This document shows positions 11,457 through 39,656 of a stretch of DNA of 64,000 nucleotides, one piece after another. Position 1 is the first letter of the stretch. Each line of letters starts with the position of its first letter. Location of the stretch: assembly GCF_021390675.1 (NCBI RefSeq), contig NZ_JAJEJV010000004.1, positions 682,001 through 746,000 on the forward strand, given 5' to 3'. The stretch comes from Dyella sp. 2HG41-7. GTDB taxonomy: Bacteria > Pseudomonadota > Gammaproteobacteria > Xanthomonadales > Rhodanobacteraceae. Both the position numbers and the translations under genes were made by a program. The notes under the pieces were generated by a model. The model saw nothing but the letters and a program-made list of their open reading frames with translations. It had not been told where the DNA came from and searched no databases.

Positions 11457-12191
11457 ATGAATGTGGCTTCGGAATATCTGCAGCTGCAACGCGAAGATGC
11501 AGACCAATTAGTACGCAAGCATGCGCCGCTCGTGCGCCGCATCGCTTACCACCTGATGGGTCGCTTGCCTCCGAGCGTTGACGTAGGAGACCTGATGCAG
11601 GCGGGCATGATCGGCTTGCTGGAGGCGGCGCGAAACTTTACGACGGATCGCGCGGCCAGCTTCGAAACGTATGCGGGCATCCGCATTCGTGGCGCGATGC
11701 TGGACGAACTCCGACGCACCGATTGGACGCCGCGCTCCGTGCACCGCAAGGTGCGCGAGGTCGCCGAAGTGGTGCGGCAGATCGAAAACGAAACGGGCGC
11801 GGATGCGGAAACCGCCGAAGTGATGAAACGTCTCGGCATGACCGCCGAGGAATATCACCAGGTGATGTCCGACGCGACCAGCGCGCGACTGCTCAGCCTT
11901 ACGGCGCCGGACGACGGCGAAGGCGGCGAAGGCAGCGCGTTGGATGTGGTGGATCACGACAGCTTGGGGCCGCAAGACAGCTTCGAGCAGAACAACATGA
12001 GCGAAGCGCTGGCCGAAGCGATCAGCACGTTGCCCAAGCGCGAACAACTGGTGATGTCCCTGTATTACGAACAGGAATTGAACCTGAAAGAAATCGGCAT
12101 GGTGCTGGGCGTGACGGAATCTCGCGTCTGCCAGATCCACGGCCAGGCTTTGGTAAGGCTGCGCGCGCGCATGGGCGATTGGCGCGGCTAG
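11457..12191 (+). CDS. fliA: RNA polymerase sigma factor FliA (sigma-28)
   Basis: A 244-residue sigma factor of the FliA group. Region 2 is seen as [19 protein letters not shown] and [18 protein letters not shown], region 3 includes the FliA-typical [14 protein letters not shown], and region 4 ends [24 protein letters not shown]. It drives late flagellar and chemotaxis genes. The ATG is one base after the flhG stop, with a GGGG stretch upstream. Perfect FliA promoters occur at 19901-19927 and 20670-20696. The unrelated frame upstream of this ATG belongs to flhG. Confidence 0.96.
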
Positions 12192-18313: not shown

Positions 18314-18447
18314 TTCCTCTCCCCTCCGGGGAGAGGATCGAGGTGAGGGGACACACTGGCGTTGAACTTTATATACCCATTGTTCAAACAGAGTCCCCCG
18401 CAAGACCAGCCCCTCACCCCAGCCCTCTCCCCTACGGGGAGAGGGAG
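18314..18447. repeat. Paired palindromic repeat after the DUF2802 gene (family A)
   Basis: The hairpin CTCTCCCC/GGGGAGAG with GGTGAGGGG at the left faces CCCCTCACCCCAGCC plus an equivalent hairpin at the right. The centre shares TGGCGTTGA and GCAAGACC with the flhA-flhF copy. It lies between two convergent genes, and the right hairpin supplies the last codons and stop of the minus-strand flhB-like gene. Confidence 0.85.
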
Positions 18448-18710
18448 TTATCGCGTGATGCTTCGTAGATAGTCGCCAACACCGCCGCAGCGGCGGCGTA
18501 CAACTGCGGCGGCACATCCGCGCTCATGCGTAGCGAGATCAGCAACGCCGCGATCTGCGGATCGTGATGCAGCGGCAAACCAAGCGCTTGCGCGTGACGA
18601 AACAGATTTTCGACATCGCGCGCCGTACGACCCGATGAGGCTTGCGAGCCATCGCCGCCGGGCAAGCGAAGCACGACTTTGCGTTGCGGCGCGGGGAGCG
18701 GCGTACTCAT
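18432..18710 (-). CDS. Stand-alone FlhB C-terminal-domain protein (FlhX/YlqH type)
   Basis: A 92-residue protein resembling only the cytoplasmic end of FlhB: LFRHAQALGLPLHHDPQIAALL followed by SADVPPQLYAAAAAVLATIYE matches the ALYxxxxxGxxIPxxLYxAVA region of full FlhB. It has no membrane helices and lacks the NPTH cleavage site, so it mimics the downstream half of cleaved FlhB. The start overlaps the stop of the FliK-like gene by four bases. Its last residues (NSLSP) and stop codon come from a family A repeat, suggesting the original end was replaced. Confidence 0.8.
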   Translation of the reverse strand: MSTPLPAPQRKVVLRLPGGDGSQASSGRTARDVENLFRHAQALGLPLHHDPQIAALLISLRMSADVPPQLYAAAAAVLATIYEASRDNSLSP

Positions 18711-19837
18711 ACAGTGGCCTTCAAAAAGACGGCGCTCATGCTATTGCCGGCCTGCGGCAAACCGAACTGGCAGGTGAGCTGATCCAGAAACAATCCGGTG
18801 GCGTCGAGACGTTTTCGCACATGGTCGAATTGCGCTTCCAGCAGATCAACCGTGTCGCGAAGCTGCGCCCACAATCGCACCGATAAACGCAAGCCTCGCA
18901 ACTGCAACTCGCCGACGATCGGGCCGAGCGACGGCAAATCCAGCGAAAAGCCCATCGTCCAATCCTGCTGCGCATCTTCCTCGTGCTTGAGCGACAACTG
19001 CAGTACATCGGCGCCTTCGTCGTCCTGCACCGGAATTTCGACGATCCAGTGATTCGGATTGGCCTGCAATTGCGCCACTTCCAAACGCGCCAACGCGGCC
19101 TGCACATCGGTGTAGAGACGGGGCAGAAATTCCGTCGCGTCGTTCGTCGAGAGCAAATCCGGCGGCAACGGCAACCGACCCTGCGGCACGACACCCCGAT
19201 ACAGCAAAGGTGGATCCACTTCGTCCGCGCTGCTTTCGCCTAGCGTGGCCTGACCTTTGAGAATTGCCACTAGACGCAACATCGCGCCTTTCACATCGTC
19301 GTGCGCGGTATTGGCGTCGCTCGCCGGCGCATGCGCAAGTTGCGCTTCGAGAAACAGACCGCTGCGATTCACCGCCTGACGCAACCCTTCTCCCGTCGTC
19401 AATTCGCGCGGTGTGCTCATGCTGTGCTCCAGCAACGCCAGCGCCGAACGCAGATACGGCGGCAACTGCTTCGCGACCGACCACTGCGACAGCGCGCCCA
19501 CCGTGGCGAGCAACGGCGCGTAGCCGTTCTGCTGCGGCAAGCGCGCTCGTAGCGCCTGATGAACCGTCGTATCGAGTTGCGAATCCGCGCCGAGAATTTC
19601 CAACTGCGGCTGCGCGCCGACACTCAGCACGCGAACCTGGAATTGCGGTGGCAGCTTGGTGCCCGGCGCTTCGGTTTCGACCGTGATCGCGCCGACTTGC
19701 AACACCAGCAGCCCTTGTTCGTTCACGCCCAGCGGGCGCGCCGACAACACGCTGCCAATACGCCAGCCTTCGGAGCTGGCGCCGGCGGCGGCACCGAGCC
19801 AGGTCAGTGCGGCAACGCTGGTTGGCTGGATGATCAC
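18707..19837 (-). CDS. FliK-like protein (second hook-length/export control homologue)
   Basis: A 376-residue protein with a C-terminal region resembling the FliK Flg_hook domain: LGPIVGELQLRGLRLSVRLWAQ parallels the LGPLDVKV motif of FliK, followed by a helical end. The N-terminal two thirds are variable, with a beta-rich start (GLLVLQVGAITVETEAP). It differs from the FliK at the left edge and lies head-to-tail with an FlhB C-terminal-domain gene, pairing the two partners of the export switch. A perfect FliA promoter (19901-19927) lies 64 bases upstream. Its actual function is unknown. Confidence 0.75.
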   Translation of the reverse strand: MIIQPTSVAALTWLGAAAGASSEGWRIGSVLSARPLGVNEQGLLVLQVGAITVETEAPGTKLPPQFQVRVLSVGAQPQLEILGADSQLDTTVHQALRARLPQQNGYAPLLATVGALSQWSVAKQLPPYLRSALALLEHSMSTPRELTTGEGLRQAVNRSGLFLEAQLAHAPASDANTAHDDVKGAMLRLVAILKGQATLGESSADEVDPPLLYRGVVPQGRLPLPPDLLSTNDATEFLPRLYTDVQAALARLEVAQLQANPNHWIVEIPVQDDEGADVLQLSLKHEEDAQQDWTMGFSLDLPSLGPIVGELQLRGLRLSVRLWAQLRDTVDLLEAQFDHVRKRLDATGLFLDQLTCQFGLPQAGNSMSAVFLKATV

Positions 19838-19900
19838 GCTTGCGTCCTTGGTTGGCGGTGTGCCGGGTTTGGCACGGGTGGTCGCGAACCTTTGGGAAGG

Positions 19901-19927
19901 TTATCGGCGGGTGGTGGTTGGACTTTA
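19901..19927 (-). promoter_or_regulatory. Sigma-28 (FliA) promoter for the fliK-like/flhB-like operon
   Basis: On the minus strand the sequence reads TAAAG-N14-GCCGATAA, an exact match to the enterobacterial FliA core elements with consensus spacing. It points toward the FliK-like gene and ends 64 bases before its start codon. Confidence 0.85.
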
Positions 19928-19961
19928 GGGGTTTTTTTGTGTTTTTTTGGGGTGATTTGGC

Positions 19962-20610
19962 ATTGCCTGCGGCGCTTTCGGTCCGGAGGACCGAGTTACT
20001 TTTCTTTGCTTGCCCAAAGAAAAGTAACCAAAAGAAATGGCACCCCAAAGGGCGCGCTCTCCGGGCATCCTGCCCTCCGAGTACGCAGATGGGCTACGGG
20101 GTTTTTCGACAGGGCATCCTGCCCTGACGAAAAACTGGCCGGCATCCATGCCGGCCACCCTGCGGGCTTTCCTTCGCCCATCTGCCGCGCCCTAAGGGGC
20201 CCCACGTTGCGCACATCCATGTGCGCACTCGGTGCCGGCGCTTTGCGCCGGTAAGGGCATGAAGTTCTCCGCATTGCCATCGATTCCTGCAGTTTTGGCC
20301 GTGCCTGGGTTACCAGCGCAAAGCGCTGGCACCGAGTGCGCGCCACGACGGCGCGCTGCTCTACCCGGGGCCCCTTGGGTGCGGTGAAGGGCTGGCGGAT
20401 CAGGCCCCGATAGGGGGCATGGGCAGGACGCCCATGCCTTTTCGTCAGGGCAGGATGCCCTGTCGAAAAGCCCCGTCAGTCCTTCACGGACTTGGCGGGC
20501 AGGACGCCCGCCAAGCGCACCCTCGGGGGTGCCCTTCTCTTTGGTTACTTTCTCTTGGGCAAGCAAGAGAAAGTGACTCGGTCCTCCGGACCGAAAGCGC
20601 CGCAGGCAAT
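19962..20610. repeat. 649-bp imperfect inverted-repeat element
   Basis: The outer 34 bases at each end are perfect inverted copies (starting ATTGCCTGCGGCGCTTTCGG), and similarity continues for about 115 bases through GCTTGCCCAA and AGTAACCAAA blocks. Inside lie further nested palindromes: GGCCGGCATCCATGCCGGCC near 20141, GCGCACATCCATGTGCGC near 20207, and a cluster around GGCATGGGCGTCC. There is no convincing gene in it. It occupies the space between two divergent FliA promoters. Pieces with GCTTGCCCAA-AGAAAGTAACC are familiar from xanthomonad intergenic DNA, so it may be a dispersed element. Confidence 0.85.
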
Positions 20611-20669
20611 CTCAAAACCCGCGAAATATCGAATAGCGCGCACAACCAACACTTCAGCAACTCGCCACC

Positions 20670-20696
20670 TAAAGCTACCCAACACTGCGCCGATAA
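20670..20696 (+). promoter_or_regulatory. Sigma-28 (FliA) promoter for the second chemotaxis cluster
   Basis: TAAAG-N14-GCCGATAA matches both FliA core elements exactly with the consensus 14-base spacing. It lies 34 bases before the STAS gene that opens the F7 cluster and 59 bases after the end of the 649-bp inverted repeat. Confidence 0.88.
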
Positions 20697-20730
20697 AGGC
20701 AACAAGAGACCAACCCAGCGGACCCCCGCC

Positions 20731-21033
20731 ATGGCAACCAAAAGCAAAACCGAAACGCGGATAGCCATCCCCGCCGACTGCCGCATCGCCGACGTCGGCG
20801 ACCTGCACAAGCAACTCACCGGCGCCCTGGACTCCCCGCAAATCGTCCTCGACGGCTCCGCCGTGGACCGTGTCGACACGGCGGCGCTGCAATTGCTGGT
20901 CGTATTTCAACGCGAAGCGCAGAAGCGCGCGCGTCAGGTGAATTGGGCGGGCGCGAGCGTGCCGTTGCATGACGCAGCGACGCAGCTCGGGTTGGCACAG
21001 GTATTGGCACTGCCGACGAAACCGTCGGCCTGA
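20731..21033 (+). CDS. STAS-domain protein (anti-anti-sigma/MlaB-like), first gene of F7 cluster
   Basis: A 100-residue single STAS domain: IAIPADCRIADVGDLHKQL, IVLDGSAVDRVDTAALQLL and VNWAGASVPLHDAATQLGL. The phospho-acceptor position of SpoIIAA-type proteins is occupied by Thr in VDTAALQL. STAS proteins usually bind partner kinases or membrane proteins; the partner here is unknown. ATG 20731 follows the FliA promoter directly; the longer upstream frame runs into the 649-bp repeat and is not used. It is followed 14 bases later by cheY. Confidence 0.85.
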   Translation: MATKSKTETRIAIPADCRIADVGDLHKQLTGALDSPQIVLDGSAVDRVDTAALQLLVVFQREAQKRARQVNWAGASVPLHDAATQLGLAQVLALPTKPSA

Positions 21034-21047
21034 ACTTGAGGTGGAAG

Positions 21048-21410
21048 ATGGCAAAGATTCTTGCAGTGGACGATTCGGCATCGATGCGCGGCATGGTGGC
21101 GTTTACGTTGCGTAGCGCCGGCTATGAGGTGAGCGAGGCGGAGAACGGGCAGATGGCGCTGGATACAGCCTCGTCGTCGCGTTTCGATCTCGTATTGGCG
21201 GACGTGAATATGCCGGTGATGGACGGGATCAGCATGGTGCGCGAGTTGCGCACGCGCGCCGATTACAAGGGTGTGCCGATTCTTATGCTGACCACCGAAT
21301 CCAACACGGATAAGAAGATGGAAGGCAAGGCTGCGGGTGCGACGGGCTGGTTGGTGAAGCCGTTCGATCCGGAGCAGTTGCTGGCGACCGTCAAGCGCGT
21401 GCTTGGTTGA
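21048..21410 (+). CDS. cheY: CheY-like response regulator (F7 cluster)
   Basis: A 120-residue receiver domain with AVDDSASMRGMVAFTLRSAG, acceptor Asp in LADVNMPVMDGISM, LTTES and KPFDPEQL. It lacks an output domain, so it signals by binding. ATG 21048 has GAGGTGG six bases upstream and is preferred over an ATG 12 bases earlier. Its sequence differs clearly from the F6 CheY at 12446; whether it reaches FliM or serves as a phosphate sink is unknown. A repeat separates it from cheA. Confidence 0.92.
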   Translation: MAKILAVDDSASMRGMVAFTLRSAGYEVSEAENGQMALDTASSSRFDLVLADVNMPVMDGISMVRELRTRADYKGVPILMLTTESNTDKKMEGKAAGATGWLVKPFDPEQLLATVKRVLG

Positions 21411-21415
21411 ACTCG

Positions 21416-21543
21416 CCTCACCGTCATTCCGGCGAAGGCCGGAATCCAGTTCAAACACGTTGTGCGAAGCACTCAGAATCGATGTTGTGTCCTTCGGACG
21501 CATAGTCAAACTGGATTCCGGCCTTCGCCGGAATGACGTGAGG
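21416..21543. repeat. Palindromic repeat (family C) between cheY and cheA of the F7 cluster
   Basis: Arms of about 38 bases, CCTCAC plus TCATTCCGGCGAAGGCCGG at the left and its inverse at the right ending GTGAGG, pair almost perfectly. The centre carries TGTCCTTCGGACG, also seen in the related element at 32211-32358. Confidence 0.88.
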
Positions 21544-21581: not shown

Positions 21582-23573
21582 ATGAGCAACATCAACGTCG
21601 CCCAATTCCACAAAGTTTTCTTTGAGGAAAGCCTCGAAGGCCTCGATACGATGGAGGCCGGCTTGTTGGCGCTCGACGAGGGCGGCGATACCGAGCTGGT
21701 GCACGGTATTTTCCGCGCGGCGCATTCGATCAAGGGCGGCGCGGCCACGTTCGGTTTTCCGGAAATGGCGGCGTTTACGCACGAAGCGGAGTCGCTGCTG
21801 GATCAATTGCGCGACGGCCGCAATTTCGGGCGTCGTGCGATCGATCGCACATTGGTGGAACTGTTGCTTCGCACCGTCGACTGCCTGCGCGCGATGTTTG
21901 CGCGCGCGCAAAGCGGTTTGCCGCTGGCCGACGAAACCAGCAATGCGTTGAAATCGCAGTTGGCGCTGGCGGCGGGACGCGATGCATCGGAAGTCGCTGC
22001 GAAAACCGCCGAGAAACCCACGGTTTCCAGCGGCTGGATTATTCAATTCCGTCCCCACGCCGGCATGTTGGCCGGCGGCAACGACCCGTTGCGTCTTATG
22101 CGTGAACTGGCTGCGCTCGGTCAGCTGGTCGTCGAGGCACAGTTGGATCGTGTGCCCGCGCTGGACGCACTCGACCCTTCCGAATGCCACCTTGCCTGGC
22201 GCGCCGAATTGACCGGTGCGGTCAAACGCGAAGCCATCGCGGCGGTGTTCGAATGGGTCGAAGACGAATGCGATCTGGTCATCGAGCCGCTCGTTGCCGC
22301 CGCGCCACCGCCCGCACCGCCGGTCGAAGCCGTTGCTGCGCCCGCCGGTGCGGGCGCCGCGGCAGGAACGGCGCGTGCGGCGGCGAGCAGCAACGATGCT
22401 GGCACCGTGCGTGTAGGCATCGACAAGATCGACGGCTTGATCGATCTGGTCGGCGAGCTGGTGATTACGCAGGCAATGCTCGATCAGTTCCGCGAGGATT
22501 TCGATCCGTCGCGTCTGGCGATGTTGCAGCACGGCTTGGCGCAGTTGGCGCGACACACGCGCACGCTGCAGGAAAGCGTGATGGGCATACGCATGTTGCC
22601 GATCGGTTCGGTGTTCAACCGCTTTCCGCGTCTGGTGCGCGATCTCAGCCAGAAGCTGGGCAAGCAGGTGAAACTGGAAATGGTTGGCGAGCAGACCGAG
22701 CTCGATAAAACGGTGCTCGAAAAGATCGGCGATCCGCTGGTGCATCTGGTGCGCAACGCGATCGATCACGGTCTGGAAACGCCGGAAAAACGCCGTGCGG
22801 CGGGCAAGGGCGACATGGGTACGCTGCGTCTGGAAGCGTTCCATCGCGGCGGTTCCATCGTGGTGGAAATCGTCGACGACGGTGCGGGTTTGAATCGCAA
22901 CGCGATCGTCGCCAAAGCGCTTGAAAAAGGCTTGATCAAGAGCGGCGAAGGGCTCAGCGACGAAGCGGTCGGCGAGTTGATTTTCCAGCCGGGTTTCTCC
23001 ACGGCGGCGGTCACGACGGATCTGTCGGGACGCGGCGTGGGCATGGACGTGGTTCGCCGCAACGTGGTGGATTTAGGCGGCAATGTTGCCATTCAAAGCC
23101 GTCCCGGCCAGGGCACTACCTTCACGATTACCTTGCCGTTGACGCTTGCCATCATCGACGGTCTGCGTGCGGCGGTGGGCGATGAGTGCTACATCGTGCC
23201 GCTGGTTTCCATTGTGGAATCGGTGCAGTTGAAGGCCGACCAGGTGCGCAGCGTGACTGGCGGTGGCGAGCTGTTCCGCTTCCGCGGCGAATACCGGCCG
23301 ATCGTGCGCTTGCATCAGCAGTTCGGTTGCGCCAATGCGCGACAGAATATCGAGGACGCGCTGGTGATCGTGGTCGAAGCGGATGGCAACCAAGTCGGTT
23401 TGTTGGTGGACGAATTGATCGGGCAGCAGCAGGCGGTGGTGAAGTCGCTGGAAGCCAATTATCGCCGTGTCGACGGCATCTCCGGCGCGACCATTCTTGC
23501 CGACGGTTCGGTGGCGTTGATCATTGATGTGGCCGGCTTGATTCGTCTGCAATCGCGTCGCAAGGCGGCGTAG
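21582..23573 (+). CDS. cheA: Chemotaxis histidine kinase CheA (F7 cluster)
   Basis: A 663-residue kinase with Hpt His48 in AHSIKGG, a CheY-binding P2-like domain at about residues 148-240 (WIIQFRPHAGM, LMRELAALGQL, AAVFEWVEDECDL), an Ala/Pro linker, dimerisation helices (VGIDKIDGLIDLVGELVITQ), an ATPase (HLVRNAIDHGLE, VDDGAGL, LSGRGVGMDVV) and a C-terminal CheW-like domain. It resembles the enterobacterial domain plan more than the first CheA does. It receives signals from the MCPs and CheW in the same cluster. Confidence 0.96.
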   Translation: MSNINVAQFHKVFFEESLEGLDTMEAGLLALDEGGDTELVHGIFRAAHSIKGGAATFGFPEMAAFTHEAESLLDQLRDGRNFGRRAIDRTLVELLLRTVDCLRAMFARAQSGLPLADETSNALKSQLALAAGRDASEVAAKTAEKPTVSSGWIIQFRPHAGMLAGGNDPLRLMRELAALGQLVVEAQLDRVPALDALDPSECHLAWRAELTGAVKREAIAAVFEWVEDECDLVIEPLVAAAPPPAPPVEAVAAPAGAGAAAGTARAAASSNDAGTVRVGIDKIDGLIDLVGELVITQAMLDQFREDFDPSRLAMLQHGLAQLARHTRTLQESVMGIRMLPIGSVFNRFPRLVRDLSQKLGKQVKLEMVGEQTELDKTVLEKIGDPLVHLVRNAIDHGLETPEKRRAAGKGDMGTLRLEAFHRGGSIVVEIVDDGAGLNRNAIVAKALEKGLIKSGEGLSDEAVGELIFQPGFSTAAVTTDLSGRGVGMDVVRRNVVDLGGNVAIQSRPGQGTTFTITLPLTLAIIDGLRAAVGDECYIVPLVSIVESVQLKADQVRSVTGGGELFRFRGEYRPIVRLHQQFGCANARQNIEDALVIVVEADGNQVGLLVDELIGQQQAVVKSLEANYRRVDGISGATILADGSVALIIDVAGLIRLQSRRKAA

Positions 23574-39518: not shown

Positions 39519-39656
39519 TGTGTTGGTCCTCTGGCCGGAAACGCCACGAAACAGCGGCTTGATTCACTATCGGCGCGGACGGACCGAACTTTAGGGTCGA
39601 TTGCTGGGCGTTAATCGATGTGGTGGAGGCAACGCCCGATGCTTTGCGGCCACCAC

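Follow-up and report, generated by a model that had tools for sequence, protein, structure and literature searches.

Genes and predicted promoters of the locus

The analysed stretch of the Dyella sp. 2HG41-7 genome, 64 kb in length and referred to as the window, carries two gene units with flagellar and chemotaxis functions, which point away from each other across a shared spacer. The features around this spacer, and the gene for the sigma factor presumed to read it, are the following:

11457-12191, forward strand: fliA (sigma-28), presumed reader of both promoters (NF005413, 2.7e-87, above cut-off)
18432-18710, reverse strand: short FlhB-like protein of 92 aa (TIGR00789, 1.6e-6, and Pfam Bac_export_2, 0.021, both below cut-off)
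18707-19837, reverse strand: FliK-like protein of 376 aa with a GTG start (Pfam Flg_hook, FliK C-terminal, 1.5e-12)
19901-19927, reverse strand: predicted FliA promoter of the fliK-like/flhB-like pair (-35 TAAAG at 19923-19927, -10 GCCGATAA at 19901-19908; exact match)
19950-20620, no strand assigned: one copy of a dispersed palindromic repeat with two arms (19950-20254 on the left and 20310-20620 on the right)
20670-20696, forward strand: predicted FliA promoter of the STAS/chemotaxis unit (-35 TAAAG at 20670-20674, -10 GCCGATAA at 20689-20696; exact match)
20731-21033, forward strand: STAS-domain protein of 100 aa at the head of the rightward unit (Pfam STAS_2, 5.1e-14)
21048-21410, forward strand: CheY-like receiver (Pfam Response_reg, 1.2e-28)
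21582-23573, forward strand: CheA-type kinase (Hpt, H-kinase_dim, HATPase_c and CheW domains)

The FliK-like protein had a match in 76 of 147 genomes of the family and no NCBIfam match at 0.01. A second Flg_hook (FliK) domain, at 499-747, scored higher (78.9 compared to 50.2 bits), and the protein at 18707-19837 is therefore probably not the main FliK. A search of solved structures with the 92-aa FlhB-like protein returned weak matches only, including an FlhB chain at an E value of 0.37. The rightward unit was found in the order STAS, CheY-like receiver, CheA, MCP and CheW, followed by CheR, CheD and CheB; the CheR match was below its curated cut-off and those of CheD and CheB were above theirs. 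The STAS protein was matched in 78 of the 147 family genomes and was 72% identical to a protein of Dyella mobilis, the one named relative found. In one genome (G061, loci L149 and L150) the fliK-like and STAS genes are non-adjacent and lie about 11 kb apart. The sequence-only reading had described both flanking units and had placed fliA about 8 kb away, and both descriptions agree with the domain matches and with the distance of 7.7 kb between fliA and the left site.

Both sites match the pattern TAAAG-N14-GCCGATAA without mismatches and in divergent orientation, exactly where they had been reported. They are the only exact FliA-type sites in the window, in which six sites with up to two mismatches were found compared to 0.49 expected from shuffles. 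The whole genome (G000; 4,255,517 bases in four contigs) holds four exact sites, two of which are the divergent pair. The other two (L007 and L008) have no evident flagellar gene alongside. At up to one mismatch, 17 sites were found genome-wide compared to 10 for a reversed-pattern control, so that the pattern at this threshold is weak evidence when taken alone. Sites with one mismatch precede flgM (FlgM, 2.1e-15) and genes for CheW-domain, HDOD and hemerythrin proteins, which would fit a FliA regulon. A further FliA-like site with one mismatch (TAAAG...GCCGATAG) is present in the window at 39567-39593; it has no evident flagellar gene alongside and sits 48 bp before a gene for a predicted, secreted-looking protein of 120 aa with no family match.

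Both sites of the divergent pair conform to the FliA form TAAA(G)-N14/15-GCCGATAA, each precedes a gene of late flagellar or chemotaxis function in a position kept in relatives, and the genome contains fliA with a match above cut-off. No sigma-70-like site was found in 19600-21100. The two -35 boxes are separated by 742 bp (19928-20669); a space of "34-735" bases, given earlier for this gap, has no clear meaning.

Conserved sites and a variable spacer in relatives

The STAS-side site was exact in 25 of the best 30 of 80 loci listed, with one mismatch in three and two mismatches in two, and none of 3000 shuffles reached one mismatch or fewer. In all ten Dyella loci scored, the fliK-side site precedes the start codon by 57-64 bp, with no mismatch in one locus, one mismatch in eight and two in one. 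This count leaves out G010, in which the fliK start was missed by the pattern and which has a site with one mismatch. None of 2000 shuffles reached one mismatch or fewer on this side, and two shuffles reached two mismatches. In loci outside Dyella, TCAAGTT...GCCGAT is frequent on the fliK side and usually departs from the full consensus by three mismatches. These footprints are strong evidence that the relatives share a putative divergent pair of FliA promoters, and both sites are presumably active and FliA-dependent.

The spacer between the sites varies in both length and content. In the nine Dyella spacers measured, the -35 boxes were between 82 and 742 bp apart; across all loci in which both sites had at most one mismatch, the shortest gap was 14 bp (G026) and the longest 742 bp. 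With the same limit, orthologous pairs lacking the full repeat were 14-229 bp apart, and a gap of 5 bp was obtained in G104 if two mismatches were allowed on the fliK side; the fliK-side sites of such short-gap cases are the best-matching ones of their stretch and may have arisen by chance. The table of spacers behind these values comprises 59 entries, without G005, G010, G016, G065 and G092, and includes G061, which has no usable spacer. No element conserved between the -35 boxes was found across the Dyella alignment.

REP-like palindromes, GTAG-like or CGTC-like by their ends, fill the spacer in several Dyella; the labels were assigned from the palindrome ends after an excerpt of PMC3733652. 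Palindromes of the CGTAGGTTGGG type are present in G004, G007 and G014, a related, weaker sequence of the AGGCTGGGAT type in G002 and G012, and a CGTCATTCCCGC palindrome in G009. The spacer of G001 holds a fragment of the repeat family of the window, and fragments of this family are located at contig ends within the spacer in G005 and G010. Matches to the family were also observed in the same spacer of another genus (G115 and G077). The spacer of G015, 82 bp in length, contains no recognised repeat and no palindrome beyond that of shuffles.

An inverted-repeat score of at least 14 (a cut chosen after the first scores had been seen) was reached by six of nine intact fliK|STAS spacers. Among divergent spacers taken as background, the counts were 3 of 40 for relatives and 6 of 46 for this genome, each from 20 stretches that were hand-picked at roughly regular intervals on larger contigs and not random. 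Fisher's test of 6/9 against 9/86 resulted in p=0.0004, with kinship ignored and the orthologous spacers counted as independent. Tandem spacers of the same flagellar cluster were also rich in palindromes (45 of 108; in this split by cluster, eight genomes were used and the fliK|STAS spacer scored 6 of 8), and at least part of this richness therefore belongs to the cluster as a whole. This weakens the case for an enrichment special to the fliK|STAS spacer. Among 11 other divergent spacers in the fetched regions, one had a score of at least 14, and it lies in a stretch fetched for its repeat copy. The gene calls used to class spacers, those around the repeat copies included, came from a custom codon-usage caller that overlooked the 92-aa flhB-like gene and probably further genes.

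Palindromes were also seen elsewhere in the region. In the flagellar/chemotaxis region (window 722-32000 and L153-L171), 64 of 170 tandem spacers were palindrome-rich compared to 30 of 242 sampled elsewhere (Fisher p about 3e-9, with spacers treated as independent despite their relatedness). Between the cheY-like gene and cheA, at 21422-21538, lies a perfect 30-bp inverted pair, CGTCATTCCGGCGAAGGCCGGAATCCAGTT, a CGTC-like REP dimer; palindromes occur in this spacer in several Dyella relatives.

The inverted repeat of about 650 bp

The large inverted repeat noted in the sequence-only reading proved to be real. Its arms, of about 305 and 311 bp, share 255 of 292 ungapped aligned bases (counted with gaps, identity is 76.8% across 306 columns), and its single-strand fold was 46.6 SD below 20 shuffles. 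The family occupies two places in this genome, the window copy and a half-length copy at C4:3162516; a hairpin-pattern search of the genome found the window site only. Matches to the family were observed in 40 of 61 genomes, this one included, with up to 36 in one genome, where one copy can count twice because both strands are matched. In many of the longer copies examined, the two arms run in opposite directions. The dispersal of the copies and their inverted ends agree with what is described for MITEs.

Of 44 copies outside the window, 11 were left unclassed because of a contig edge or the lack of a usable flanking gene, and the remaining 33 were located in 25 tandem, 7 convergent and 1 divergent spacers. 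Among neighbouring genes of these loci, 82 pairs were tandem, 17 convergent and 24 divergent. The position of the window copy in a divergent spacer is mildly unusual compared to the other copies. In 20 long copies, the mean score between arms of the same type from different copies was 189 and 186 for the two types, compared to 166 for the two arms within a copy and 128 for cross-genome pairs. These scores indicate that the arms are separate lineages with some similarity within a copy and, since arms of the same type score above the arms of one copy, that the pairing is not strongly co-evolving. No cross-genome pairing exceeded the match within the copy in six of the 20 copies.

No Rfam match was found within the repeat. 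The single match was at chance level and outside the repeat, and a known RNA family was rejected on these grounds. Seven terminator-like hairpins were found in 19600-21100 compared to 2.0 expected, and an internal sigma-70-like promoter in the repeat region was rejected, as no such site was detected there. A search for the Y1/RAYT transposase PF01797, a possible mobiliser of GTAG- and CGTC-tagged REP elements, gave no match in this genome; the control search was positive in 5 of 14 known genomes. Present mobility of the repeat driven by RAYT in this genome was therefore rejected, and an ancient or lost partner is possible. Visual inspection of the ends of both copies in this genome showed no target duplication. 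A literature search using the letters of the repeat returned only papers judged unrelated from their titles and the starts of their abstracts, and no title found in other literature searches describes this repeat or the divergent promoter pair.

Interpretation and comparison with known systems

The observations are best explained, with a probability of roughly 80%, by an ancestral pair of divergent, self-contained FliA promoters, with a copy of a dispersed repeat settled in a tolerant gap. The left promoter would serve the fliK-like/flhB-like pair and the right promoter the STAS-CheY-CheA chemotaxis unit. Export of FlgM frees FliA, upon which late flagellar genes are switched on, and both units should accordingly fire late, as FliA promoters await this export. 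Such promoters would need little upstream DNA; each would hold an almost constant distance to the gene it serves and the DNA between them would be dispensable, which is why the gap could tolerate insertions. Self-contained promoters would thus account for a fixed promoter-gene distance and a free spacer length, and would make insulation needless. Repeats that would be harmful to regulator sites in ordinary divergent spacers may persist harmlessly in this gap, where the copy leaves both promoters intact. Neither promoter should transcribe the repeat, since transcription from both predicted start sites leads away from it, and its effect on them is likely to be small. The repeat probably landed in the spacer by chance and was not built in as an insulator.

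The sequence-only reading had combined two proposals. Its divergent FliA-type promoters of two flagellar/chemotaxis units are upheld by the footprints in relatives. Its spacer that isolates the units or changes supercoiling did not hold, as orthologous pairs lie 14-229 bp apart without the full repeat and the content of the spacer differs between species. A spacer required as an insulator was rejected, because both its content and its length vary among relatives (14-742 bp with at most one mismatch per site, and 5 bp with a two-mismatch site). A palindrome selected as an insulator, which would absorb negative supercoils from divergent transcription, for example as a cruciform, and so decouple the promoters, is unlikely. 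It would be in line with the excess of inverted repeats over the divergent background (p=0.0004) and with the different kinds of palindrome that hold the spacer in different species. However, orthologous pairs persist with short, palindrome-free spacers such as that of G015, tandem spacers of the same cluster are rich too, the orthologous spacers are not independent, and the cut was set after the first scores. Equally unlikely is a reading in which the sigma-28 pairs of Dyella repeatedly acquire unrelated palindromes since these are useful as topological buffers; if true, a palindrome buffer would let two late units fire together without interference.

The very strong fold, the excess of terminator-like hairpins and the higher scores within a copy than between genomes (166 compared to 128 in the 20 long copies) would suit a repeat that is expressed, or that works as structured RNA or as a terminator in both directions, barring stray transcription from both units. 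This was considered very unlikely, because the repeat has no Rfam match, lies upstream of both predicted start sites with no sigma-70-like site in 19600-21100, and has same-type arms that outscore those within a copy. Least likely of all is a chance origin of one or both matches, with the units driven by other promoters, such as RpoN/FleQ or sigma-70. Looser matches are indeed common genome-wide, and L007 and L008 are exact sites without an evident flagellar target, but position and sequence are conserved on both sides in relatives and no sigma-70-like site was found in the spacer region.

Some observations count against the self-contained promoter pair with a tolerant gap. Repeats or their fragments recur in this spacer in most of the Dyella examined, which could hint at use and not tolerance. 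The exact sites L007 and L008 lack an evident flagellar gene, and the genome-wide count at up to one mismatch is 17 compared to 10 for the control. In addition, the fliK-side site of loci beyond Dyella often has three mismatches. On the preferred reading, a well-footprinted late promoter pair is gained for a little-studied family, and the gap between divergent sigma-28 promoters is suggested to tolerate repeat insertion. A big palindrome in one genome need not be a regulatory design, as the relatives keep the promoters and swap the content of the spacer.

MITEs are dispersed miniature elements with long inverted arms and no recognised gene inside. The window repeat is likewise dispersed, with long inverted arms and without a recognised gene. 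It differs from MITEs in that the arms make up nearly the whole element, and no target duplication was evident by eye, nor did the PF01797 search yield a partner transposase. The GTAG- and CGTC-tagged REPs are described in an excerpt of PMC3733652 as dispersed intergenic palindromes of 20-40 bp, which sit mainly between tandem and convergent genes (section 15). The window repeat is also a dispersed intergenic palindrome, but with about 650 bp and two long arms it exceeds the REP size given in that excerpt. For the promoters, the consensus of Pseudomonas aeruginosa FliA quoted in an excerpt of PMC7286023, TAAAGTTT-N11-GCCGATAA, has a -35 core, -10 and spacing identical to those found here. According to an excerpt of PMC5550985, FliA up-regulates the fliS operon in Xanthomonas oryzae. 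Unlike the FliA promoters of Gammaproteobacteria, the predicted ones in the window are two exact copies placed back to back; like them, they have genes of the late flagellar/chemotaxis type downstream.
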